A stretch of DNA of 64,000 nt from positions 1-64,000 of IMG/VR virus record IMGVR_UViG_3300044639_001309; one strand, 5' to 3'. The position numbers were made by a program, and so were the translations under genes. Each line of letters starts with the position of its first letter. Positions within the stretch are counted from its first letter, which is position 1. This document shows positions 45,180 through 59,663 of the stretch, one piece after another. The DNA comes from a virus. Below the pieces are notes generated by a model. It searched no databases and had not been told where the DNA came from. It saw nothing but the letters and a program-made list of their open reading frames with translations.

Positions 45180-46181
45180 TTATTTAATCTGTGTCCACAC
45201 ACGCTCACGGATCTGCTTGGTTAAACTGTCTGGCAATGCCACATAGTCCAAATCAGCGGCATCTTTCTTACCATTCTTAAATGCCCAATCAAAGAACTTT
45301 AGTACTTCGTCACTGGTGGCTTTGCTCTTCGGTTCTTTGTACATGATGATGAAACTAGCTGAACTGACAGGCCAAGCATTGGGATTACGTTGATCCACAA
45401 TACTCAACCCCATACCAGGAACACTAAACCAATCAGCACCGTCTGCGGCTGCGGCAAATGTTAGGTCATCTGGACTAACATACCGGCCTGATTTGTTCTG
45501 TAGTTGTAGGAATGTCATGTTGTTTTTCTTAACATACGCATACTCTACATAGCCAATTGAACCTTTGATTCTGTTCACATTGGCAGCAACGCCTTCATTA
45601 CCTTTGCCACCAACTGCTGTAGCCGCCGGCCACTTGACTGCGGCACCACGACCCACACGCTGTAACCACTCAGGGCTAACTGTGGCAAGATAGTCTGTCC
45701 AGTTAAATGTTGTACCTGACCCATCAGCACGATGTACAATGGTGATAGGTTGATCGGGTAACTGTTTACCTGGATTCAATGCTGTTAATTTAGGATCATT
45801 CCACTTGGCAATGTTGCCCAAGAACACTTCTGCCATAACTGTACCAGTGATGCGTAGTTCACCTGGCTTGAATCCGTCTAAGTTTACAACAGGAACTGTT
45901 CCGCCAATGATAGCAGGAAACTGAACTTGTCCCATCTTGTCCAAGTTCTCACCGCTTACTGGGGCATCAGTTGCTCCAAAGTCCACGGTCTTGGCATTGA
46001 TCTGTCTGATGCCGCCCGAACTACCAATACTCTGATAGTTTAAACTAGTGCCTGTGGTTTTCTTATATCCTTCGGCCCACTTGGCATAGATTGGGAATGG
46101 AAATGTTGCGCCAGCACCTGTGATGTCTGCTTGTGCTGATAAAGTTACTGCGGCTAATAAAATTGCTAGTAGTTTGTTCAC
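45180..46181 (-). CDS. pstS: Phosphate-binding periplasmic protein PstS
   Basis: 333 residues. Signal peptide of 18 residues (NKLLAILLAAVTLSAQA), then the full PstS fold: TGAGATFPFPIYAKWAEGYK, SIGSSGGIRQINAKTVDFGA (phosphate-binding SGG), VHRADGSGTTFNWTDYL and GSIGYVEYAY. PstS delivers phosphate to the host PstCAB importer; aquatic T4-like phages carry it as an auxiliary metabolic gene. Preceded by a Pho-box-like direct repeat (46224-46241) and a TAAATA that could act as -10, followed by a strong terminator. Likely induced under phosphate limitation by the host PhoB. Confidence 0.95.
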   Translation of the reverse strand: MNKLLAILLAAVTLSAQADITGAGATFPFPIYAKWAEGYKKTTGTSLNYQSIGSSGGIRQINAKTVDFGATDAPVSGENLDKMGQVQFPAIIGGTVPVVNLDGFKPGELRITGTVMAEVFLGNIAKWNDPKLTALNPGKQLPDQPITIVHRADGSGTTFNWTDYLATVSPEWLQRVGRGAAVKWPAATAVGGKGNEGVAANVNRIKGSIGYVEYAYVKKNNMTFLQLQNKSGRYVSPDDLTFAAAADGADWFSVPGMGLSIVDQRNPNAWPVSSASFIIMYKEPKSKATSDEVLKFFDWAFKNGKKDAADLDYVALPDSLTKQIRERVWTQIK

Positions 46182-46305: not shown

Positions 46306-47007
46306 TTACCTTAAACGTGCTAGGCCTACCAGTCTAAACACGCTCAGCCACATCCATCCTGCATCAAACTCAAACCAGCGACGACTCAGTCTAGGGTTAG
46401 CAGGATCCAAATGATGGTTATTATGCAGGCATTCCCCACCAACAACAATATCCCAAGGAACAATGTTTCTACTGTGATCTTTAGTTTCGCCATTTCTATA
46501 TCCCCACCAGTGACCTAGACCATTGATGACTCCAGCGGCCCAGAATGGAATCCAAATCATTTGAATGCCCCAAACTAGTAAACCTGGCAGGCCAAATATC
46601 AACAAATCTATTAGTAGCATAAGCACAATACCAGCTCGGCTATGCTTGGTGTAGACATTTTGTTCCATCCAGTCATTAGGAGTACCTACTCCGTACTGAG
46701 CTACCATTTCAGCGTTTTTGCTGGCTGAGTGATAAAGTCCTGCACCCTTGAACAACACACGCCAAATTCCGTAAACATGTGGCGTGTGCGGGTCACCGGG
46801 CTGATCACTGAATCTGTGATGTTTGCGATGTATGGCTACCCATTGCTTGGTGACCATGCCAGTTGTGAGCCATAGCCATGCTCGCATGAAGTGTTCAAGT
46901 ATTGGATTGAATTCTATTCCCCGATGGGCTTGTCCGCGATGTAAAAATAAAGTGACACATACTATGGTAATATGTGTCACTATCAGTGTGTATATTAGTT
47001 CTATCAT
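46306..47007 (-). CDS. Acyl-lipid/acyl-CoA desaturase (membrane fatty acid desaturase)
   Basis: 233 residues from ATG 47007 (MIELIYTLIVTHITIV). Three His boxes: H23-R-G-Q-A-H28, HRKHH (His60, 63, 64) and HNNHH (195, 198, 199), plus GHWWGYR, as in delta-9 desaturases with a di-iron centre. Several membrane helices. It would introduce double bonds into host membrane lipids. Two terminator-like hairpins overlap the start region (46953-46984, 47026-47047). A longer GTG start at 47046 would lie in the upstream hairpin. Confidence 0.88.
   Translation of the reverse strand: MIELIYTLIVTHITIVCVTLFLHRGQAHRGIEFNPILEHFMRAWLWLTTGMVTKQWVAIHRKHHRFSDQPGDPHTPHVYGIWRVLFKGAGLYHSASKNAEMVAQYGVGTPNDWMEQNVYTKHSRAGIVLMLLIDLLIFGLPGLLVWGIQMIWIPFWAAGVINGLGHWWGYRNGETKDHSRNIVPWDIVVGGECLHNNHHLDPANPRLSRRWFEFDAGWMWLSVFRLVGLARLR
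46953..46984 (-). promoter_or_regulatory. Terminator-like hairpin inside the desaturase start
   Basis: GTGACACATA / TATGTGTCAC 10-bp stem in leftward RNA followed by TTTATTTTTA, at codons about 10-20 of the gene. It could act as an attenuator. Confidence 0.5.
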
Positions 47008-47025
47008 ATAGTATATAGCTAACAA

Positions 47026-47047
47026 AAATAGTGCCACATATAGCACT
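47026..47047 (-). promoter_or_regulatory. Terminator-like hairpin before the desaturase
   Basis: ATAGTGC / GCACTAT stem in leftward RNA followed by TTTTTG, between the small membrane gene and the desaturase ATG. Confidence 0.5.
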
Positions 47048-47061
47048 ATTACTGCAAGGGC

Positions 47062-47349
47062 TTAGGCAAGCATCCTGATCAAGCCAACACTATCAATTGT
47101 GGTTAGCAATAGGTAGTTAGCCAGCATGCCAAAAGATTTCCTAGTCCAACTAGCCCAAGCATACATGGCACAGCCAATGATCCAAATAGGATAAAGAGTA
47201 AGAAGCGGAGGAGTGGGGACTGTGAGTGCCATAGTAATACTGCAACCAATACTAATAGCCCAAGCAAGCAACTCAACAGCAAAGCGAATTCTATGGGACT
47301 TAAAGTCATCTTGTATCCAGTCAAACGTGGGTTTTAAAAGTTCATTCAT
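47062..47349 (-). CDS. Small membrane protein (95 aa)
   Basis: Helices at about 22-44 (FAVELLAWAISIGCSITMAL), 47-65 (PPLLTLYPIWIIGCAMYAWA) and 73-93 (MLANYLLLTTIDSVGLI). Similar short membrane proteins, sometimes likened to PnuC, occur in T4-like phages; no transport motif is seen here. Overlaps amidinotransferase 2 by ATGA. Confidence 0.62.
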   Translation of the reverse strand: MNELLKPTFDWIQDDFKSHRIRFAVELLAWAISIGCSITMALTVPTPPLLTLYPIWIIGCAMYAWASWTRKSFGMLANYLLLTTIDSVGLIRMLA

Positions 47350-48485
47350 TTTTTATTTGGAAAGAAGTCTTGCATTACCCCTTCTCTGTGTAGATCAAGT
47401 GTCACGCAATGGATGCCACCGTCCCAGAAGTATCTGTGTCTGAAATTGATAACATGTGGAGTGATTCCATACCTACTTAGTGCTTCAAACACTCGGTCAT
47501 TGTAGTTAAACACAATTACGTTCTTTGGGTCAATGATCAGCATGTTGACATCAAATACTGTTTCCTCAACATACCCAGTCCAATGACCAAGCCAAGTTTC
47601 TACAACATCAATTACATTCTGATCGTATTCGAATCCAGGTATCCACCATTTACCGTTGTTTTTGGCTTTTAAATCCTTGAATGGTTTAATGTGATCCCAA
47701 CTCTGTCCAGGGAGATAAACAACTTCCCAGCCTGGAAAAGTTTCTGCATAAGTTGGTACATCTTTTAAACTGATAATTAGTCCAGGAGTAACCGGACAGT
47801 AAACAGCATCGCCGTGACCACCAGTGTTGATAATATGTGTGCGATTATTTGGAAATTCTTGTGTTACTACTTGTTTGATTTTATTCTGGTCGTCAGTGTA
47901 CGACTCTGTGGCAAAGTATAAATCTTTGCCGATACGTGATGTCATCATCCCTTGCACACAGGGATGAGGACTAGTCTTTATTATATTGCCCTGTGATTGA
48001 ATACGATCAAATATTTTTTTATAAGGGTAGTGATGACGGAACACTTCTTCTTTACTTGCATCAAGCCAATTATGCACATCCAAGCATTCCTGCTGTACAT
48101 GACTTGGTAGATCAGTGATGTCTACAGAATTTCTTGGCCAACTTGGATCTTTAATTGTTTTGTAAAATTCTTCCCATTGGTTGGTTGGTCTATAAAACGT
48201 TTCTCCAATCATAACCATAATATCTCTAGGTTGAAGGGGAGGAGGTGTAAAAGGAGTTCTTGTTTGATTAAACCACTCTGCAGGAATTTCTGGTCTTAAT
48301 ACTTCAACACCAAAGGTTTCTAATACTGTTGCAATTTTTTGCAGGTCTTCTTCTGTTTCAATAGCAATACGCTCAAACAGTCTACGCACATGCGGAACTT
48401 TGATCCAGTTATAGAATTCAGGTGGATAGCTACGACCTACTACACAAACTTTTAACGGATCCCAGTGTTGGTACACACTATACAT
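47346..48485 (-). CDS. Glycine amidinotransferase-like enzyme, paralogue 2
   Basis: 379 residues; closest relative in the window is paralogue 1. Shared start (MYSVYQHWDPLKV, GRSYPPEFYNW), GGHGDAVYCPVTPGLII and the C-terminal DGGIHCVTLDLHREGVMQDF with Cys360 after His359. An insertion of about 45 residues around 110-155 distinguishes it. The paired His and Asp residues of the pentein fold are present. Overlaps UvsE and the small membrane gene. Same reaction class, possibly another acceptor amine. Confidence 0.85.
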   Translation of the reverse strand: MYSVYQHWDPLKVCVVGRSYPPEFYNWIKVPHVRRLFERIAIETEEDLQKIATVLETFGVEVLRPEIPAEWFNQTRTPFTPPPLQPRDIMVMIGETFYRPTNQWEEFYKTIKDPSWPRNSVDITDLPSHVQQECLDVHNWLDASKEEVFRHHYPYKKIFDRIQSQGNIIKTSPHPCVQGMMTSRIGKDLYFATESYTDDQNKIKQVVTQEFPNNRTHIINTGGHGDAVYCPVTPGLIISLKDVPTYAETFPGWEVVYLPGQSWDHIKPFKDLKAKNNGKWWIPGFEYDQNVIDVVETWLGHWTGYVEETVFDVNMLIIDPKNVIVFNYNDRVFEALSRYGITPHVINFRHRYFWDGGIHCVTLDLHREGVMQDFFPNKK

Positions 48486-49497
48486 TTACATGTCTTTCAT
48501 AAACTTGTTCACTAGCCAGGTTCTTGCCCTTGGCCTCGCATTGGATATCAAAGTTGTCAGCAAAGGTCAAGGCCCAGTCAGTCACAGCGTGATTCCAATA
48601 GAAGTCACTGTGTGCCCGGAGTTTCTGTTTTTTATAACCTCTAGCAAGAAGTTCAGCAAGATCGGGTCTAGTTCCTCGGTCATGGTCAACCAAAAGGTCC
48701 TCGCGACTAACACTATAATGAAGTGCAGGACGAGTGCCGCGCCAAGAGTCAATAACCCGCTTGACACGATCGTCCTGCGCGGAGATGTACTCTCCCGAGT
48801 TAATCCAGTGGTGGTGTAGGTCCAATACAAGAGCCACATGCTGAGCCACAGCCAAAGTAGTGTCAAGTCCATTTGTCATCTCATCATTCTCGATAGTAAT
48901 TAAGTTTCTTGCTTCTGGGCTGAGTCTACCTAGAGTACGCAAGAATTTTGCGGCACCACCTTTACCGCTCAAGTGTACGTTGATCTTAAAACCATTGTCG
49001 TGCCAGGTTTTGCCATAGCCCATCCAACGTGCCATATCAGCGTGATATTCAAATTCCAGGATTGAACGTTCTACAATCTCATCTGCTTCACTTGCTAGTA
49101 CGCAAAATTGTCCAGGATGAAAGCTCAAACGCACACCGTATTTACGTGCGGCTTCACCAATTGGGGCAAAGATCTTCTCACAATGATCCTGAATTTCCGG
49201 CCGTTGCCACCACGCAATCCATGAAGGTTCAGTGTAGCCCTGTAGCATTTCGCTACCAAGACGTACCATTCTGCGTTCTGCGGGCAAGGTGGCCACACGT
49301 TCGATCATCTTCACAGCCGCCGAGGCATTGTGATTCATGATATCCCATTGACGTTGCTCTGCTTCGTCCTTGTGTTCGCGGAGCCAGCGCATGGTAGTTG
49401 ATCTGCCGTTTAGGTCCCGGTCCTTTGCGTTGACTTTCATACCGCCACATTCTGTGGGGTCATTAAGCCATTTGCAACAAAATCCAATTCTTCCCAT
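48478..49497 (-). CDS. uvsE: UV damage endonuclease (UvsE/UVDE family)
   Basis: 339 residues from ATG 49497 (MGRIGFCCKWLND); an in-frame upstream codon lies over the promoter. GIGFCCKW-like start, ARKYGVRLSFHPGQFCVL, KINVHLSGKGGAAKF, LITIENDEMTNGLDTTLAVA and ALVLDLHHHWINSGEYI match UVDE, a TIM-barrel endonuclease that nicks 5' of UV photoproducts. Metal-binding His/Glu/Asp are present (HPGQF, ENDE, DLHHHW). T4-like phages often carry uvsE/denV-type repair. Confidence 0.9.
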   Translation of the reverse strand: MGRIGFCCKWLNDPTECGGMKVNAKDRDLNGRSTTMRWLREHKDEAEQRQWDIMNHNASAAVKMIERVATLPAERRMVRLGSEMLQGYTEPSWIAWWQRPEIQDHCEKIFAPIGEAARKYGVRLSFHPGQFCVLASEADEIVERSILEFEYHADMARWMGYGKTWHDNGFKINVHLSGKGGAAKFLRTLGRLSPEARNLITIENDEMTNGLDTTLAVAQHVALVLDLHHHWINSGEYISAQDDRVKRVIDSWRGTRPALHYSVSREDLLVDHDRGTRPDLAELLARGYKKQKLRAHSDFYWNHAVTDWALTFADNFDIQCEAKGKNLASEQVYERHVNV

Positions 49498-49505
49498 AGT
49501 GGCTC

Positions 49506-49697
49506 CTACCAATGATGAACAACGTTGATACAAATAAAGAAACAGGTGATTACATGTATTATAACCCAAAACGTTTTTAAAGTCAATGCAATTCTGGCTT
49601 CACGCAAAGAAAGAATAGGAATATCTGGTCGATCTTCATCTGTCTGCCCCATTAGATGTCCGGTGGCTCTGGCCCAGATACGTTCAAGTGAATTCAA
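49506..49697 (-). CDS. Small membrane protein with TTG start (63 aa)
   Basis: Start TTG 49697. MNSLERIWARATGHLMGQTD, RPDIPILSLREARIALTLKT, FWVIIHVITCFFICINVVHHW: a soluble N-terminus and one C-terminal helix (43-63). The RIWARATGH...RP-IP---REARI-L-LKTFWV-IH--TC signature is conserved in T4-like phages. The UvsE promoter overlaps its 3' part. Confidence 0.7.
   Translation of the reverse strand: MNSLERIWARATGHLMGQTDEDRPDIPILSLREARIALTLKTFWVIIHVITCFFICINVVHHW
49558..49586 (-). promoter_or_regulatory. Sigma70-type promoter for uvsE
   Basis: TTGACT (49581-49586), 17 bp, TATAAT (49558-49563); leader of about 54 bases to ATG 49497. Confidence 0.8.
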
Positions 49698-49719: not shown

Positions 49720-50274
49720 TTACACTAGTAATTTTAACACATTTGGCATTATATCGCAAGTGAGATTGGATAATTTTTTAAAAGATTTGTCAACAGAATT
49801 TGGGTGATCAACCAAAACCCACTGTGTGTCTGGGTTAGCTGTAATAATACTTTGAATTAGAGCATAATAATTAAAGTCTTTATGTTCTTGAAATCGGTCC
49901 AGAGCTTTTTCTTTTTTGGATAAATCAAAACCAGCCAATAATACAATGTCCGAAATATTACTAACCAAGTGCAATGCTACGATATCGTCTGGACAGTCTA
50001 CTTCCTGTGTGAACTCGCCTTCGTAGAGTTTGACACCCATTGGTCTCCCTATAGACTGGTAATGATCTTTAGACACATAAAAATTACACACAGCTTGAAA
50101 CGCACGTTGAATTAATTCCTGCGCTTTGGACTTATTGTGACATATAACATTATCAGTAGAGCATCCACGCCAGGTCTTCCAGGAACCCCAGGTTGGGCCT
50201 ATGCTTTTAATAGAATCAAGGTTGACTGTTGGATCAATTTGATAGCCCTCGGCAAACACCCAATTTATTTTCAT
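49720..50274 (-). CDS. Unknown phage protein (184 aa)
   Basis: MKINWVFAEGYQIDPTVNLD, SIGPTWGSWKTWRGCSTDNV, ICHNKSKAQELIQRAF and DIVALHLVSNISDIVLLAGF. ATGA overlap with the virion-like gene upstream. A ST-NVICH-KSKA-EL motif occurs in T4-like aquatic phage proteins without known role; DIVALH..DIVLLAGFDL may be a Rossmann-type core. Confidence 0.6.
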   Translation of the reverse strand: MKINWVFAEGYQIDPTVNLDSIKSIGPTWGSWKTWRGCSTDNVICHNKSKAQELIQRAFQAVCNFYVSKDHYQSIGRPMGVKLYEGEFTQEVDCPDDIVALHLVSNISDIVLLAGFDLSKKEKALDRFQEHKDFNYYALIQSIITANPDTQWVLVDHPNSVDKSFKKLSNLTCDIMPNVLKLLV

Positions 50275-51548
50275 TCACCAGCCTTTAGTGATTGCCAGCG
50301 GAATGCACCGATACATACCCAAGCAAACGGTGTGTTGGGCTTTGGGTCGCTGTTAAACACAATGTCTCCGCGTGAGCCGCTGTATCCAGGAACTGCAGGT
50401 TCAAATGCAATACGATGTTTGTCAATTCTAATTTTTTTGACAGTGGTTAGGCCTTCGGGATCTATGTCAATACTGGACTGTCTATTAATACCAATTGACA
50501 ATCCTTGTTTTCGGCCTGTTCCGAAATACGCTTGATTTTTAGAAATCTTACCCGACAACAACGATACTTCTTCATCCCAGACACTCAGAGCCATCTCTGG
50601 TTGATCGGTATTGATACCCACACGCTTGTTGGCAACTGCAAGTGTGTCAAAAATTCTGGCCTTCCCCGAAACATCAAGTTCTCTTAGTGTTCCAACTTTT
50701 TGTAAATTTGATTCAATGATAGTTGGGTTGATACCATTGTGTGCAATAAGAGGTTTTCCATTTAGTGTAACTTCACTGAAGTCAATTCCTCCAGCCTTGG
50801 CAATATCCAATACTTGATTAACTAACTGATTTTTCCATTCGTCATTGGATAATTCTAGTGTGAGCGACGCAATTTTTGTAGCAAGTTCATTCCACGAATT
50901 GTTATCCGTATTGATTTGTCCTTTAACAACAAGATTTTGTACTGTTAATGTGTCATCAACAATGGCATTTTTAGAAATAAGATTATTTTCTACTATCACA
51001 GTATCGTCAGTGACAATTAATTCCAATTTGGTTGATTGATCAATAATGCCCGAAGTTTTAAAATTGGTAATTAGTCGATCTTGCCAACGAGTAATACCGT
51101 TATCAATTTCGTTGACTAACATTTTGTTTAGATCTATTCCGCTGATCTTTTGCAAAAGTTTTAGTGACATTTGCTTGTGAATAGTATTTTCAATTTTGTT
51201 TAACCAAGTAGAATCGACTACTAGATTGTCAATTGTGGACTCAACAAAAGTCTGCACAGAGTTATCAACTGCCATTGAGATTTTATTAGCATCTACATAT
51301 AAATCTAATCCAGGCACATGCCCTTGTTCAAATAATTTAGTAACACTATTTTGTACAGTGGATACCAAATCAGGAACTGTTGATATATTACTAAATTTTG
51401 CAGTAATCCTATCCTGTACATGTTTTGTAATTTGTCCTTCAATGGCACTAAGCCATTTGCCGTTATTCATAACGGCAGCAACTTGTTCAGCAACTGCTTT
51501 TGCTATCTGTTGTTCTACTAATTCTGTTACCGATTTGGTGTCAAGCAT
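50271..51548 (-). CDS. Virion-associated fibre-like protein (425 aa)
   Basis: Residues 1-200 are helical and amphipathic (LVEQQIAKAVAEQVAAVMNN, MLVNEIDNGITRWQDRLITN). From about 185 there are strand repeats (NLISKNAIVDDTLTVQNLVV) and a C-terminal domain RVGINTDQPEMALSVWDEEV, YFGTGRKQGLSIGINRQSSI, VFNSDPKPNTPFAWVCIGAF typical of tail-fibre or neck proteins (GINT--P--ALSV, P--WVC---WR). Structural role likely; overlaps amidinotransferase 3. Confidence 0.68.
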   Translation of the reverse strand: MLDTKSVTELVEQQIAKAVAEQVAAVMNNGKWLSAIEGQITKHVQDRITAKFSNISTVPDLVSTVQNSVTKLFEQGHVPGLDLYVDANKISMAVDNSVQTFVESTIDNLVVDSTWLNKIENTIHKQMSLKLLQKISGIDLNKMLVNEIDNGITRWQDRLITNFKTSGIIDQSTKLELIVTDDTVIVENNLISKNAIVDDTLTVQNLVVKGQINTDNNSWNELATKIASLTLELSNDEWKNQLVNQVLDIAKAGGIDFSEVTLNGKPLIAHNGINPTIIESNLQKVGTLRELDVSGKARIFDTLAVANKRVGINTDQPEMALSVWDEEVSLLSGKISKNQAYFGTGRKQGLSIGINRQSSIDIDPEGLTTVKKIRIDKHRIAFEPAVPGYSGSRGDIVFNSDPKPNTPFAWVCIGAFRWQSLKAGE

Positions 51549-52458
51549 GTTCTCTCCATAAATCTAATGTCACACAGTGAAAACCGCCGCCTAATGTTCT
51601 ACTATGTCGTAATTCTAACGGAACTACTGTAAAACTCTGTTGCTCTAGTATGCGTATCAACTCTGTTTGCTTTTGGTCAACAATCACTGTTGTTGGGTCA
51701 ACCACTAACATATTTAAGGCAATCCACTTACTTGCATACGGGTAATTATAGAAGTCTTGAGCAATAACTTCATCTATATAAATTTTATCCCATTTTTCAA
51801 AAATTTTAGGGCAATTTGCTGAATTAACCCTGCTACCATTTAGCAGTACAAGGCCTTCACGCAATGGTGTAATAGTGGAGTCAATATGCACACCACTATA
51901 AAAATTACAAATTTCAATTTCTACATCAGGAAACTGTTGCTGTAGCCAATCATATGCGGCACGATTGCCAGATGGCGACTCTAAAAATAGCATTTTATCG
52001 TTTAGGCGCAGTAGATTAGCCGCATCTAAAATCATATTTTCATTCCTGGGCATGTGTAGATAATTCGGTGCCAAATCAACAATGTCATGGTAGCATTGTA
52101 ACTCCATGTTCCGACACGGGTACATCATAGCAGGATCTATAATAGTATCTTTGTAAACTAGTAATCTGTCACGTGGGCAATAATTGTACATTCCGTCATG
52201 AGTTTGAAAGTTAAGTGGCTCCGGACGTACAACGTCCACACCCAAACTGATTAGGGTTGTTGCCAACTTATCTAAGTCTTCATTGGCTTCGTCAATAATT
52301 TGTTGGGGTACAGGACCACGTGGAACAGGAGTTTCCTTCCATGAGGTCTTTTCACTTTCCAATTTAAACACAGGATCATACACAGGCCAGTTTGCATCTG
52401 TGGCAGATCCAACTACGCAAGTTTTAAGTTTATCCCATTCGTTTTGGCTATAAATCAT
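51541..52458 (-). CDS. Amidinotransferase-like enzyme, paralogue 3 (short, divergent)
   Basis: 305 residues, about 60-75 shorter than the others. MIYSQNEWDKLKTCVVGSAT, NYCPRDRLLVYKDTIIDPAM, GVHIDSTITPLREGLVLLNG and the nucleophile motif GGGFHCVTLDLWREHA (Cys295) show the same pentein family; the C-terminal tail after the motif is shortened. Overlaps the 2OG oxygenase-like gene by ATGA, so the two may act together. Confidence 0.8.
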   Translation of the reverse strand: MIYSQNEWDKLKTCVVGSATDANWPVYDPVFKLESEKTSWKETPVPRGPVPQQIIDEANEDLDKLATTLISLGVDVVRPEPLNFQTHDGMYNYCPRDRLLVYKDTIIDPAMMYPCRNMELQCYHDIVDLAPNYLHMPRNENMILDAANLLRLNDKMLFLESPSGNRAAYDWLQQQFPDVEIEICNFYSGVHIDSTITPLREGLVLLNGSRVNSANCPKIFEKWDKIYIDEVIAQDFYNYPYASKWIALNMLVVDPTTVIVDQKQTELIRILEQQSFTVVPLELRHSRTLGGGFHCVTLDLWREHA

Positions 52459-52973
52459 ATATGTCCAGTAATTTGAAGTGTGTACCGTGGTTCAGGTCCA
52501 ATGTTGGCTGCCATGTGTGGAGTATTATATGTCCATTCAACCACGGTTCCGGCTTGCCAATTAACCACAGGGTTTCCTAACACTTCAAGGTAATGTCCAG
52601 ACTTCCAATCTTCTACTAGAACAATGGCTCGTCTTATGTTGTTCTCTTGGCCTTTTAATTTAAAAATATCAATATACCTAACGTAAAGATCACTGTGTGT
52701 GGGCATTACTGTTCCCGTAGGCATTCTGTAATAAGCGGTACCAATATCTTTCCATCCCTGAGATTCAAATAGATCAATGAACTTCTGATTCCAGGACGGC
52801 AATTGATGTCGCATGTCGCAGAGGTCGCCGGTGATTTTGCTTTGATATCCTTGCGTGATCCAAGAGTTAACACTCACCGGATCATTAAATGGTTCGTTGA
52901 TGTAGTCAAGGCGTTTGTACTCATCATCCCAAAATACATCAATGTTGTACTTACGACTGTCGTGTGTTGCCAT
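52455..52973 (-). CDS. 2-oxoglutarate/Fe(II) oxygenase-like protein
   Basis: 172 residues. TVMPTHSDLYVRY gives HxD (His93, Asp95); NTPHMAANIGPEPRYTLQI gives the distal His153 and Arg163, together the HxD...H...R pattern of 2OG dioxygenases of the aspartyl/asparaginyl hydroxylase or cupin type. QLPSWNQKFIDLFESQGWKD is helical. Substrate unknown; context suggests oxidising a metabolite or protein in the same pathway as amidinotransferase 3. Confidence 0.72.
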   Translation of the reverse strand: MATHDSRKYNIDVFWDDEYKRLDYINEPFNDPVSVNSWITQGYQSKITGDLCDMRHQLPSWNQKFIDLFESQGWKDIGTAYYRMPTGTVMPTHSDLYVRYIDIFKLKGQENNIRRAIVLVEDWKSGHYLEVLGNPVVNWQAGTVVEWTYNTPHMAANIGPEPRYTLQITGHI

Positions 52974-54189
52974 AGTGGATGATTTTGTAACCGGTCATAT
53001 TAGCCATTTTGCGCCATGGATCTACAATAATACTGCCGGCTTCAATGGGAGTATAGAATGTATCGTCTCGTACATCTCCGGTGTATCCATAGGTAATTTG
53101 TCGATTGTGTGCCATTAATAATACCACAGGGCCTTTGACATATGCAATCACATCATTGCTGTCATCTGCTAATGGATCTAGATATTTAACGGTACGGCCT
53201 GCTTCTTTGATGTAGTGCCCAATTAAAGTGCTGTAGCTACCAATGCAATAAGGAACATCAGGCTTGTATGCTTTGCCATGAATGACAATTGGTAAATTTT
53301 TCTTTTCAGCAATATCAACAAGAAATAGTGCTAGATTTTTTGCCTGGACTTCTCGCGCATGCATGATTGTATCAAACAAGTCATATCCAATGTTGTACTC
53401 TTCAGCCAGCCAGCGCAAGGCAATGTTGTCACGTGGGTGGCATGCTCCTGCATCACCCATACCAGCTGTCATGTACTTGGGCCCCATAATACGCATATTC
53501 GACTGTGCCAGTGCATCAGTTACTACGTCAACATTGATGTTACCAATCTTTAGTGCAAAGTCTTGAATCATGTTGACCAATCCTACCTTGGCGCTGATGA
53601 ATGTATTATAGAAGATTTTGATGGCTTCGCATTCGTCCCAGGTGCCAGTTACATAACGTGGATTGTTTTTCATCAATGGGCGATAGATATCTATTAGATC
53701 TCGCATTTCGCCGGCATCGCCTGTTTCTGTACCAATCATAACCATTTCAGGATTAGCCATATCCCATTTTACACTTCCCATGGCAATCAAATAAGGGTTG
53801 TATAAAAACTGGTGTTTGTTATCTAACAACGTGGCAAAATGTCTACGTGTGGTTCCTGGAAGTACTGTGGAAATTAACACCACTCGTTTTGGCGTAGTAG
53901 CAAATTTGTTTACTTTAACCAATGCATCTTTAACTGCATCATGCCCAAAGTCTTTTGGCTCCATATGACTAGATGGTACACTTCCGTCATATCCTTCAGT
54001 GTGCGGGGTTGGAACAGCAATGAAAATCCAGTCACTTTTGCTGACTACTTCTTCAATGTCACAAACTTTAACCAGCTCGCTTTCTCGTGGGTAAATATCA
54101 TAACCACGTACAGTATATTTTTCAGCAAAGACTTCTGCGCAATCCAAACCTAGTTTGCCTAGGCCAATAAACCCAATATTATTTGACAT
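52951..54189 (-). CDS. UDP-glucose/GDP-mannose-type nucleotide-sugar dehydrogenase
   Basis: 412 residues. NAD-binding GFIGLGKLGLDCAE (GxGxxG), IFIAVPTPHTEGYDGS, STVLPGTTRR, and the catalytic Cys250 in GDAGACHPRDNIALRW. Conserved Lys191 and Asn195 in EAIKIFYNTFISAKVGLVNM. Makes a UDP-uronic acid or related sugar from the NDP-hexose by two-step oxidation. Phage copies can supply sugar for surface glycans or virion decoration (inference). AGGAA upstream; start codon faces the plus-strand gene at 54209. Confidence 0.87.
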   Translation of the reverse strand: MSNNIGFIGLGKLGLDCAEVFAEKYTVRGYDIYPRESELVKVCDIEEVVSKSDWIFIAVPTPHTEGYDGSVPSSHMEPKDFGHDAVKDALVKVNKFATTPKRVVLISTVLPGTTRRHFATLLDNKHQFLYNPYLIAMGSVKWDMANPEMVMIGTETGDAGEMRDLIDIYRPLMKNNPRYVTGTWDECEAIKIFYNTFISAKVGLVNMIQDFALKIGNINVDVVTDALAQSNMRIMGPKYMTAGMGDAGACHPRDNIALRWLAEEYNIGYDLFDTIMHAREVQAKNLALFLVDIAEKKNLPIVIHGKAYKPDVPYCIGSYSTLIGHYIKEAGRTVKYLDPLADDSNDVIAYVKGPVVLLMAHNRQITYGYTGDVRDDTFYTPIEAGSIIVDPWRKMANMTGYKIIHYGNTRQS

Positions 54190-54208
54190 GTTAATTCCTA
54201 TTGATAAA

Positions 54209-55492
54209 ATGTATCACTACCTTGAAAGTTGTGTTGATTGTGATGTATTAATTTATCACTTTTATCCACACGGCAGTAAAGAAATCGACGACCTTTCACA
54301 GTTCTCCATTAGAGATCGCTCGTGGTTTGAGTGGAATACCAGTTTGCTTATGGTCATGCACGATCAGGAGCCTTTGAATTTTGACTATTACAATGAGGAT
54401 AATTTAACAAACAGTATGTTACCTTGGTTTAATAAACACGACAAGCTGACTGCAAAAACCATGGAATTGGTGCCCGAAACTAAAGATATTTTAAGTACTC
54501 AAAACTTAAACTTTGTCTGCTACGGTCGTTCAATCTATGATAAAACACTAATTTGTCACAGTGAGCAAAGATCAGAAAATTTAAAAAAGTACCAAGAAAA
54601 TAACATGGTAGGAGTTTATTGGTGGAGTCATGCAATTATTTCTAGAGACTGGTATCGTTATGCTGAACTTGATCCTTCTTTAGTTTACGCAAATACATTT
54701 AACAAAGACTTTAACATTTATAATCGAGCATGGTCTGGTTCTAGAGAATATCGTGTAAAATTTACAGACCTACTTGTTGAAAACAATTTGATTAATAGAT
54801 CAAATATTAAATTTTCTACTACCTGTGATCAACAACATTATCAACAATATCTTTACAAAAACCCAAAATTTATCCCCAACAATGATTTATCAATGTTGCC
54901 TGAGCCAACTGCGGCATCAACTTATAGTGCAGATTATTCTGCGAACGACTACAAAGAATGTTGGTTTGATGTTGTGCTTGAAACACTATTTGATGATCAA
55001 CGACTGCATATCACAGAAAAAACTCTAAGACCAATTGCCTGTGGCAAGCCGTTTATTTTAACAGCCACACACGGAAGCCTTGATTATCTTCGCAGTTATG
55101 GATTCAAAACGTTTGGAGATTACATCGACGAAAGTTATGATTCAATCTCAGACCCGTATCAACGATTAGAAGCAATAATTCAGTTAATGACAAAAATATC
55201 AATGCTATCATTAAGTGAAAAAGAAGAACTTAATAAAAAATTTCTTCCTATAATCAAATACAATCAGCAAAGATTCTTTAGTAAAGAATTCAGTGACCAG
55301 GTAATCAACGAATTTAAAACAAATTATAAATTGGCCAGAGACATTGCTAATCAGCATTGCACTGGGCAAACTTGGAAATTTATTAACCAACTTAACTGTA
55401 CCAATCCCGAAATAAAAGAAAATCTGTTTAGAGAGAATCCCAAAAAATCCAAGGCTGATATTATTAAGTTTTTTAAACTAATTAAAAGCTAA
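54209..55492 (+). CDS. Glycosyltransferase-like phage protein 2
   Basis: 427 residues from ATG 54209 (MYHYLESCVDCDVLIYHFYP). The C-terminal module ITEKTLRPIACGKPFILTAT, LDYLRSYGFKTFGDYIDESY, DSISDPYQRLEAI resembles the GT10-like/GT-B acceptor half (EK-LRP---GKPFI). The first 200 residues (LLMVMHDQEPLNFDYYNEDN, YWWSHAIISRDWYRYAELDP) differ from the paralogue. Divergently placed next to the nucleotide-sugar dehydrogenase, so it may use its product (inference). Confidence 0.65.
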   Translation: MYHYLESCVDCDVLIYHFYPHGSKEIDDLSQFSIRDRSWFEWNTSLLMVMHDQEPLNFDYYNEDNLTNSMLPWFNKHDKLTAKTMELVPETKDILSTQNLNFVCYGRSIYDKTLICHSEQRSENLKKYQENNMVGVYWWSHAIISRDWYRYAELDPSLVYANTFNKDFNIYNRAWSGSREYRVKFTDLLVENNLINRSNIKFSTTCDQQHYQQYLYKNPKFIPNNDLSMLPEPTAASTYSADYSANDYKECWFDVVLETLFDDQRLHITEKTLRPIACGKPFILTATHGSLDYLRSYGFKTFGDYIDESYDSISDPYQRLEAIIQLMTKISMLSLSEKEELNKKFLPIIKYNQQRFFSKEFSDQVINEFKTNYKLARDIANQHCTGQTWKFINQLNCTNPEIKENLFRENPKKSKADIIKFFKLIKS

Positions 55493-57030: not shown

Positions 57031-57465
57031 TTATGAAGCGTAGTTAATTGCAATAGTCTTTGGCTTGGCTGAGTCAGGAATTACACGCTCTAGCTTGACA
57101 GATAAGATTCCGTCCTTGGCCACAGCATCCTTAACTTCAACATAATCACCTAGACTAAATATGCGAATAAACTTACGAGCACTAATGCCTTGATGACGGA
57201 AGATATATCCTTCGGGCGTTGTTTCTGTTTTTTCGCCGGTGATAATTAGCTCACCGTCTTTAACAATAATTTCAAGATCGCCTTGATTAAATCCAGCCAC
57301 AGCAACCTGTACTTCGTAGGTGTTTTCACCTGTTTCTACAATGTTGTATGGAGGGTAATTAGTTGCGGCGTGATCGATTTGATTAACAATACGATCAAAT
57401 AGTCTATCAACGCCAATAGCGTTACGATAGAAGGGGGTAATATCAAAAGATGTGATTTTAGTCAT
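57031..57465 (-). CDS. hsp20: Small heat shock protein (Hsp20/alpha-crystallin)
   Basis: 144 residues. Alpha-crystallin domain at about 40-135: NTYEVQVAVAGFNQGDLEII, VKDGELIITGEKTETTPEGY, FRHQGISARKFIRIFSLGDY, AVAKDGILSVKLERVIPDSA. Holds unfolded proteins until refolded; T4-like cyanophages commonly carry one. The short C-terminus ends KPKTIAINYAS with no IxI-V motif beyond that. Behind a full TATAAATA late promoter and AAAGGAG. Confidence 0.92.
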   Translation of the reverse strand: MTKITSFDITPFYRNAIGVDRLFDRIVNQIDHAATNYPPYNIVETGENTYEVQVAVAGFNQGDLEIIVKDGELIITGEKTETTPEGYIFRHQGISARKFIRIFSLGDYVEVKDAVAKDGILSVKLERVIPDSAKPKTIAINYAS

Positions 57466-58466: not shown

Positions 58467-59663
58467 TTATATGTTATCAGGATTATTTATTAGGTCCGCA
58501 TTGATATTCACGCATTTAATTTCTCGTTTGACATAGTCTCTTAGTTTAAACATGTGTGGCATTAGTGCTCTTTCAACTTCTGATTGCAAAGCTCTTGCTC
58601 CAGTTCCTGAATTAATTGCACGTTTTACAATTGCGTCAATACTGCTAGATTCAAAATTTAATTCCACTTGATCTTGTTTAAAAATCCAACGATATTGATC
58701 CAGGATATTGTGTTTTACTTCGGTTAGCACACGAGTCATCGAGTGCTCATCTAATTCTTCCAAGGTAACCACACTAGGAAAACGTCCTACAAATTCAGGA
58801 ATCATTCCAAAACGCACTAGATCATCAGGAGTAACTTGAGTTAGGTCAGCATCTCTCTTAGAAATCATTTCTGTGTTAAATCCAATATTTGATCCGTTGA
58901 TACGATTTTTTAAAATGCTGTCAAGTCCAACAAATGCACCACCGGTAATAAACAAAATTTTACTAGTGTCGATTTCAATCATCTCGCCGCCAGGGTGTTT
59001 TCTACCACCGGAGTTTGGAATACGACATACAGTACCTTCAACTAACTTTAGCAATGCCTGTTGAACGCCCTCGCCCGACACATCCCGAGTGATACTGGTG
59101 CTTTCACTTTTACGTGCAATTTTGTCAATCTCATCTACAAATACAATTCCACGCTGTGCTTTTTCAACGTCATTGCCCGATGCCGCATATAACCGACTAA
59201 TCAACATTTCAACGTCGTCACCAACATAGCCTGCTTCAGTAATACTGGTAGCATCTGCAATAACAAAAGGAACATCTAAATATCTTGCCACTGTCTTGGC
59301 CAGAAGTGTTTTACCCGATCCAGTTGGGCCAAGCATGAGGATGTTGGCTTTGGATAGTTCAATTTCTGTTCCTATGTTTTGTAGTCGTTTGTAATGATTA
59401 ACAATTGCAACGCTAAGAACAACTTTTGCACGATCTTGACCAATGACGTATTGATCAAGAAATTCTTTGAGTTTCATGGGATCCATGCGTTCTACGTCAT
59501 TAACAATTTCTGCAGGTGGCTGGTCTTCTAACAAGTCCTGGCATAATGTGACACATTCGTTGCAGATTGCAACATCGTCACTGACAATTAGTTTTTTTAC
59601 TACGTCTTTTTCTTTGCCACAAAAGCTACAGGCGTGTTTGTGTTGTTGCAGTACAGCAGTCAT
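58467..59663 (-). CDS. clpX: ATP-dependent unfoldase ClpX
   Basis: 398 residues. Zinc-binding N-domain with Cys12, Cys15, Cys34, Cys37; Walker A GPTGSGKT (112-119); Walker B VDEID (177-180); pore loop GYVG (145-148) and RKHPGG (from 221); and the IGF loop (NIGFN, 260-262) that docks on ClpP. So the unfoldase and its ClpP contact are intact, near full length (E. coli ClpX 424). TAATG overlap with the membrane gene 59663. May redirect host ClpP or the phage ClpP-like protease to new substrates (inference). Confidence 0.95.
58484..58489 (-). promoter_or_regulatory. TAAATA late-promoter-like motif before bS21
   Basis: AATAAATAATC on the complement, inside the end of clpX, about 40 bases before the bS21 ATG with AAGGGAG between. 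Confidence 0.5.

Follow-up and report, generated by a model that had tools for sequence, protein, structure and literature searches.

The DNA analysed here (the window) is a stretch of 64,000 nucleotides, positions 1 to 64,000 of the 120,346-base virus record IMGVR_UViG_3300044639_001309 (G000), and it carries a compact gene group that we studied as a candidate sugar-modification cassette. Three genes lie in tandem on the minus strand: UGD (52951..54189) encodes a nucleotide-sugar dehydrogenase of the UDP-glucose/GDP-mannose family of 412 amino acids, OG (52455..52973) a 2-oxoglutarate (2OG)/Fe(II) oxygenase of 172 amino acids and AT1 (51541..52458) a StrB1-like amidinotransferase of 305 amino acids. 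As an earlier note on this DNA had stated, they overlap, UGD and OG by 23 nucleotides and OG and AT1 by 4. Beside them on the plus strand lies GT (54188..55492), which encodes a divergent, putative GT-B-like glycosyltransferase of 434 amino acids. The note had also placed GT here, but with a start about 33 bases too far upstream (TTG 54155). The start is most likely ATG 54188 because the 95%-identical protein of a sister phage starts likewise, and in both phages this codon shares the bases CATG with the UGD start. The sister phage (G002) is a 345 kb record with ~91% nucleotide identity across most of the window. Because it encodes a tail sheath, a DNA polymerase and a terminase large subunit, the comparison supports the window virus being a large tailed myovirus-type phage, T4-like in the broad sense only. 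A nucleotide search of the region against isolated phages gave no match.

The gene calls and the four enzyme identities proposed in the earlier note were borne out, that of GT by a weak fold match. UGD scores above the Pfam cut-offs for PF00984 and PF03721, and it matches PHROG 9148 (UDP-glucose dehydrogenase) at 1.5e-85 and the UDP-glucose dehydrogenases of the PDB at 1.5e-18. Of 159 relatives, 152 keep its catalytic motif GACxPRD. For PF03720, the C-terminal UDP-binding domain, the score is 19.2 bits against a cut-off of 30, and TIGR03026 reaches 132.8 against 189.8 bits. By these matches UGD is a member of the dehydrogenase family, and the sub-cut-off UDP-binding domain leaves its nucleotide-sugar substrate open. 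The OG protein gave only a sub-threshold Pfam match and was identified by motif and fold. H93-x-D95, H153 and R163, which form an HxD...H...R motif, are invariant in 39 relatives, and a Foldseek search with the AlphaFold model (predicted local distance difference test score, pLDDT, 94.5) was led by prolyl-4-hydroxylase and other 2OG dioxygenases (E 4.8e-7), with 314 PDB matches at E <= 0.001. OG is predicted to have the double-stranded beta-helix fold of 2OG oxygenases with its iron site and 2OG-binding arginine.

AT1 stays under the cut-off of Pfam PF02274. Its best PDB match is StrB1, the inosamine-phosphate amidinotransferase (1bwd), at 5.9e-62 for the single sequence, with HsvA as runner-up at 4e-28; a profile of 18 phage sequences matched 1bwd at 2.8e-86 and the next entry at 1.1e-49. 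AGAT, HsvA and SxtG are all far weaker matches than StrB1. Seven residues (D97, R116, D145, H191, D193, H294 and C295) are invariant in the 18 phage sequences and align with the catalytic and arginine-site residues of StrB1 and AGAT. By its closest relative, its full-length match and these residues, we assign AT1 as an amidinotransferase of StrB1 type. In the amidinotransferase tree, where several long branches are of unsure placement, the freshwater AT1 proteins form a clade (97/90 support) apart from the bacterial, S-SCSM2R-type and AT2 groups. The Campylobacter-type enzyme was rejected as the nearest relative of AT1, as it falls in a different clade on a long branch. The GT protein has no family match in Pfam or further sequence searches and shows a mean column identity of 42% across 30 relatives. 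Its AlphaFold model (pLDDT 91.7) retrieved almost exclusively GT-B enzymes among the top Foldseek matches, but these were weak (best E 7e-3, template modelling score ~0.33).

The earlier note had named neighbours not conserved together as a result that would refute it, and this did not occur in the freshwater lineage. Testing was possible in 66 distinct AT1 loci that extend far enough upstream: 61 hold the strict tandem UGD-OG-AT1, four have it broken or interrupted and one lacks OG alone. Of the four, L089 has a glycosyltransferase-like open reading frame (ORF), L109 has an endonuclease-like ORF, L096 has a deletion and L130 has a UGD split by an intein. The overlaps between the genes are conserved across AT1 loci as well, and the median dN/dS values (UGD 0.056, OG 0.088, AT1 0.071 and GT 0.207) indicate strong purifying selection on UGD, OG and AT1. 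Given the tandem in so many loci and the low dN/dS, the grouping is not due to chance. Not all four genes belong equally to it. In G010 the OG-AT1-GT unit is intact and UGD lies ~200 kb off in a QueE-NadE-UGD group (QueE by our reading of the sequence), and we rejected UGD as indispensable at the locus. GT was likewise rejected as a constant cassette gene: beside UGD it varies, or is missing, in many relatives. These arrangements indicate that OG and the amidinotransferase (AT) are the functional pair, with UGD a movable and GT a variable neighbour.

Two further observations concern UGD. In locus L130 (4955-7502 of IMGVR_UViG_3300037863_000258) the gene is interrupted at the catalytic cysteine by an apparent split intein: the intein N-half closes one ORF, next comes an endonuclease-like ORF, and a third ORF opens with the intein C-half, after which UGD resumes at ...HN/CHPRDN. 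Across distinct aquatic phages UGD also repeatedly adjoins or neighbours an NAD synthase gene, sometimes together with a carbamoyltransferase, as in S-SCSM2R (197145-199148), Bellamy (178544-181295) and HTVC008M (130412-132312), and in QueE-NadE-UGD loci such as L020-L079.

The OG-AT pair was also found in other phages. The isolated Synechococcus phage S-SCSM2R carries an overlapping pair annotated as 2OG oxygenase and inosamine amidinotransferase, in an operon that also holds several glycosyltransferases, a DegT-like gene and a radical S-adenosylmethionine (SAM) gene; its UGD adjoins NadE amid further glycosyltransferases. The S-SCSM2R AT belongs to another, abundant AT lineage. A search with it gave 330 viral relatives, and the following counts are from the best 80, which represent 58 distinct loci. 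A shortened DegT aminotransferase is present in 53 of the 58, UGD in 6 and OG in 47, there on the same strand and at most 6.5 kb away; in 31 OG directly adjoins AT. The shortened DegT protein matches PF01041 at 5.5e-17 and keeps the pyridoxal phosphate lysine and the aspartate; an internal stretch and the C-terminal domain are missing. Carbamoyltransferase, radical SAM, sulfotransferase and glycosyltransferase genes are the other recurrent neighbours, so that the sugar or glycan context suggested in the earlier note extends to other aquatic phages. Its remark that such a gene set is not known in T4-like phages stood in part: S-SCSM2R already has an annotated OG-AT pair, but in the open-licence literature we found no paper discussing it and no description of an amidinotransferase-2OG module in a phage, virion, glycan or cyanophage context.

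Further arrangements of the pair were observed. OG abuts AT in L349-L351, with AT first, and in G009 OG lies divergently beside a second AT. A Bdellovibrionota contig has OG preceding and abutting AT, and the 3.5 Mb genome has no other OG-family gene; the other 240 sampled genomes of Bdellovibrionota contain no OG-family gene. In two AT lineages UGD lies directly beside AT. Read from these gene neighbourhoods, the association of OG with AT recurs independently, in distantly related AT groups. We rejected OG as universally tied to AT, since a number of OG-family loci lack an AT within 5 kb. Two loci filed as bacterial, L185 (Bacteroidetes metagenome-assembled genome (MAG) contig DLXM01000205.1) and L196 (Chloroflexi MAG contig PAAV01000010.1), have phage-like gene content and are probably phage sequence mis-binned into bacterial genomes.

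An amine is needed for guanidination. DegT-family genes are present in all ten relatives of 300-364 kb, and nine of these were confirmed to carry the shortened form. It adjoins an OG-family paralogue in G001, G002, G008 and G009 and an AT2-type gene in G003. In these genomes the amine for guanidination is probably supplied by the DegT aminotransferase encoded away from the cassette. The sister phage also encodes a GDP-mannose dehydratase, epimerases, a cytidylyltransferase and other glycosyltransferases. A natural-product-like cluster at ~256001-273888 of its genome contains radical SAM/SPASM, carbamoyltransferase, AMP-ligase and tryptophan halogenase genes, together with one gene of the amidinotransferase fold, two that are GT-like, a pair of DegT aminotransferases and an epimerase.

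The enzyme classes, their intact catalytic residues, the conserved gene order, the recurrence of OG with AT and the aminotransferase in the same genome are all observed in sequence or structure. We propose that the cassette is a modular phage tailoring pathway for a guanidinylated, probably oxidised, sugar or sugar-like unit of a glycan, and we consider the chances of this proposal to be about even. UGD would oxidise a nucleoside-diphosphate sugar at C6 to the uronate, and OG would hydroxylate or oxidise a ring or side-chain carbon. The DegT-type aminotransferase, encoded in the same operon in S-SCSM2R-type phages and elsewhere in the genome in the window lineage, would add an amine, to which AT1 would transfer the amidino group of arginine. 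GT-type enzymes would then attach the product to a glycan of the virion or of the infected-cell surface. The sugar nature of the acceptor, the sequence of these steps and the final target are what we infer. More broadly, aquatic T4-like phages may share a mobile, modular, streptidine-like guanidinylation pathway that builds a cationic guanidino-sugar surface glycan, which would be new for any virus; this wider proposal is tentative, and we hold it at somewhat less than even confidence.

Several points weigh against the proposed sugar pathway. The nucleotide-sugar is not fixed, as the UDP-binding domain of UGD falls below its cut-off, and the acceptor of AT1 could possibly be an amino acid, by analogy with the AGAT and AmtA families. 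The modelled GT resembles GT-B glycosyltransferases weakly, and in several relatives no GT adjoins the cassette. The window lineage has its aminotransferase outside the cassette, and some OG-family loci are without a neighbouring AT. Finally, synteny in the window lineage extends to the flanks (MPE, g121 and UvdE). Gene order alone is therefore weak evidence, and it is the recurrences in other lineages that carry the argument.

The best surviving alternative is that the cassette makes a free guanidino metabolite. From arginine, AT1 would form a small compound (guanidinoacetate, homoarginine or a polyamine derivative) affecting the metabolism of the host, OG would hydroxylate this product, and UGD, which is able to sit elsewhere in the genome, would be an independent sugar gene. 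The AT relatives AGAT, CyrA and AmtA use amino acids (PMC4887976), and a creatine-pathway gene has been reported in marine phages (PMC11360552). However, AT1 is much nearer to StrB1 than to AGAT, HsvA or SxtG, the recurring neighbours are glycosyltransferases and the DegT aminotransferase, and the UGD-AT adjacency occurs in two AT lineages. We regard this alternative as unlikely.

We also considered DNA hypermodification, in which UGD and GT would put a sugar on a modified base, guanidination and oxidation would tailor it, and the product would resist restriction. The sister genome has a gene read from its sequence as QueE-like, and we take Campylobacter phages with a related AT to be linked to 7-deazaguanine DNA. 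The UGD of Bacillus phage SP-15 is thought to supply the glucuronate on SP-15 DNA (PMC5977210). However, the record of the window and the ten relatives of 300-364 kb contain neither a thymidylate-synthase family gene (PF00303, 0 of 11 records) nor a TGT/DpdA family gene (PF01702, 0 of 11), and for T4-like cyanophages LPS (lipopolysaccharide)-type genes have been reported, with no sign of DNA glycosylation (PMC2984593). Because of these absences and the cyanophage reports, we favour a surface glycan over DNA as the target; DNA hypermodification is disfavoured, and we consider it improbable.

Equally little credence is given to the genes being hitch-hikers, that is, separate auxiliary genes held together solely by the local synteny of one phage lineage. 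The synteny of the MPE, g121 and UvdE flanks is what this explanation would lead one to see, but the OG-AT pairing recurs in several distant AT groups and in a bacterium, and the overlaps are conserved and the dN/dS values low. Protein tailoring, in which the side chains hydroxylated by OG and guanidinated by AT1 would belong to a virion protein, for instance the neighbouring 425-residue fibre-like protein, draws on the overlap of that gene with AT1 and on the protein-acting prolyl-4-hydroxylases among the nearest folds of OG, but is very improbable because the 425-residue gene is missing from most cassette loci, on which ground we rejected its product as an obligatory target, and the known substrates of the AT family are small molecules.

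The other genes around the cassette were also analyzed. The fibre-like protein of 425 amino acids (50271..51548, minus strand), so called from sequence reading only, has no family match in Pfam, PHROG or further family searches. Its gene overlaps AT1 by 8 nucleotides, is found in about a quarter of related loci and is possibly an operon member that is not in every locus. It is overlapped by a gene for a 184-residue protein with no family match (49720..50274, minus strand). Further along the same strand, the flanking UvdE gene (48478..49569) encodes a UV-damage endonuclease (PF03851, 2.9e-31) that is probably outside the pathway, and AT2 (47346..48485) encodes a second amidinotransferase-fold paralogue of 379 amino acids. 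AT2 is 24% identical to AT1 (E 4e-16) and matches AGAT in the PDB at 2.4e-18; its first catalytic Asp is gone and the His, Asp and Cys are retained. The sister genome holds five such AT2-type paralogues beside AT1 (at 80894, 82028, 204258, 205927 and 264471), and since the AT2-type proteins are without the first catalytic Asp and keep most other active-site residues, their chemistry may differ. The auxiliary genes of the window include those for a PstS-like phosphate-binding protein (45180-46181), a fatty-acid desaturase (46306-47046) and Hsp20-like (57031-57465) and ClpX-like (58467-59663) proteins, the last two recognised only by reading the sequence. Rfam and promoter scans gave nothing informative, and terminator-like sites were no more frequent than in shuffled sequence.

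Phage glycan islands are widespread in water, but very little is known of what they make. A conserved module of this kind predicts a defined chemistry, an arginine-derived guanidino group on an amino-sugar, and turns 'LPS-like genes' into a testable structure. It could point to a coat of positive charge, on virus or cell, that affects adsorption, superinfection or grazing, and may supply compact, self-contained guanidinylation enzymes from outside the antibiotic producers.

The closest known system is the streptidine arm of streptomycin biosynthesis, whose core logic is the DegT-type aminotransferase StsC together with the amidinotransferase StrB1. The role of StrB1 in that pathway has been stated (PMC4887976). 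The phages resemble it in that StrB1 is the best PDB match of AT1, with the same catalytic residues, and in combining a DegT-family aminotransferase with a StrB-type AT, in one operon in S-SCSM2R-type phages and in one genome in the window lineage. They differ in adding a 2OG oxygenase and a nucleotide-sugar dehydrogenase, in the shortened aminotransferase, in having no dedicated kinase that we could identify and in an AT1 clade separate from the actinobacterial enzymes. The glycan/LPS islands of T4-like cyanophages (P-SSM2, S-SCSM1, S-SCSM2R, Bellamy and HTVC008M), proposed to change the cell surface, share UGD, NadE, carbamoyltransferase, glycosyltransferases and 2OG oxygenases with the phages studied here, whereas the compact UGD-OG-AT operon is peculiar to the freshwater jumbo lineage. 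In Campylobacter phages a putative glycine amidinotransferase lies in an exchangeable radical-SAM cluster (PMC2853527). In this CP220-type module, too, a phage AT stands beside nucleotide-diphospho-sugar transferase-like genes, but it is just 26% identical and has a different position in the tree. Radical SAM enzymes replace OG, and there is no OG-family gene. Finally, the glucuronate DNA hypermodification of Bacillus phage SP-15 likewise involves a phage-encoded UGD with glycosyltransferases, but SP-15 has a hydroxymethyluridylate synthase, whereas the relatives tested here are without a gene of the thymidylate-synthase family.

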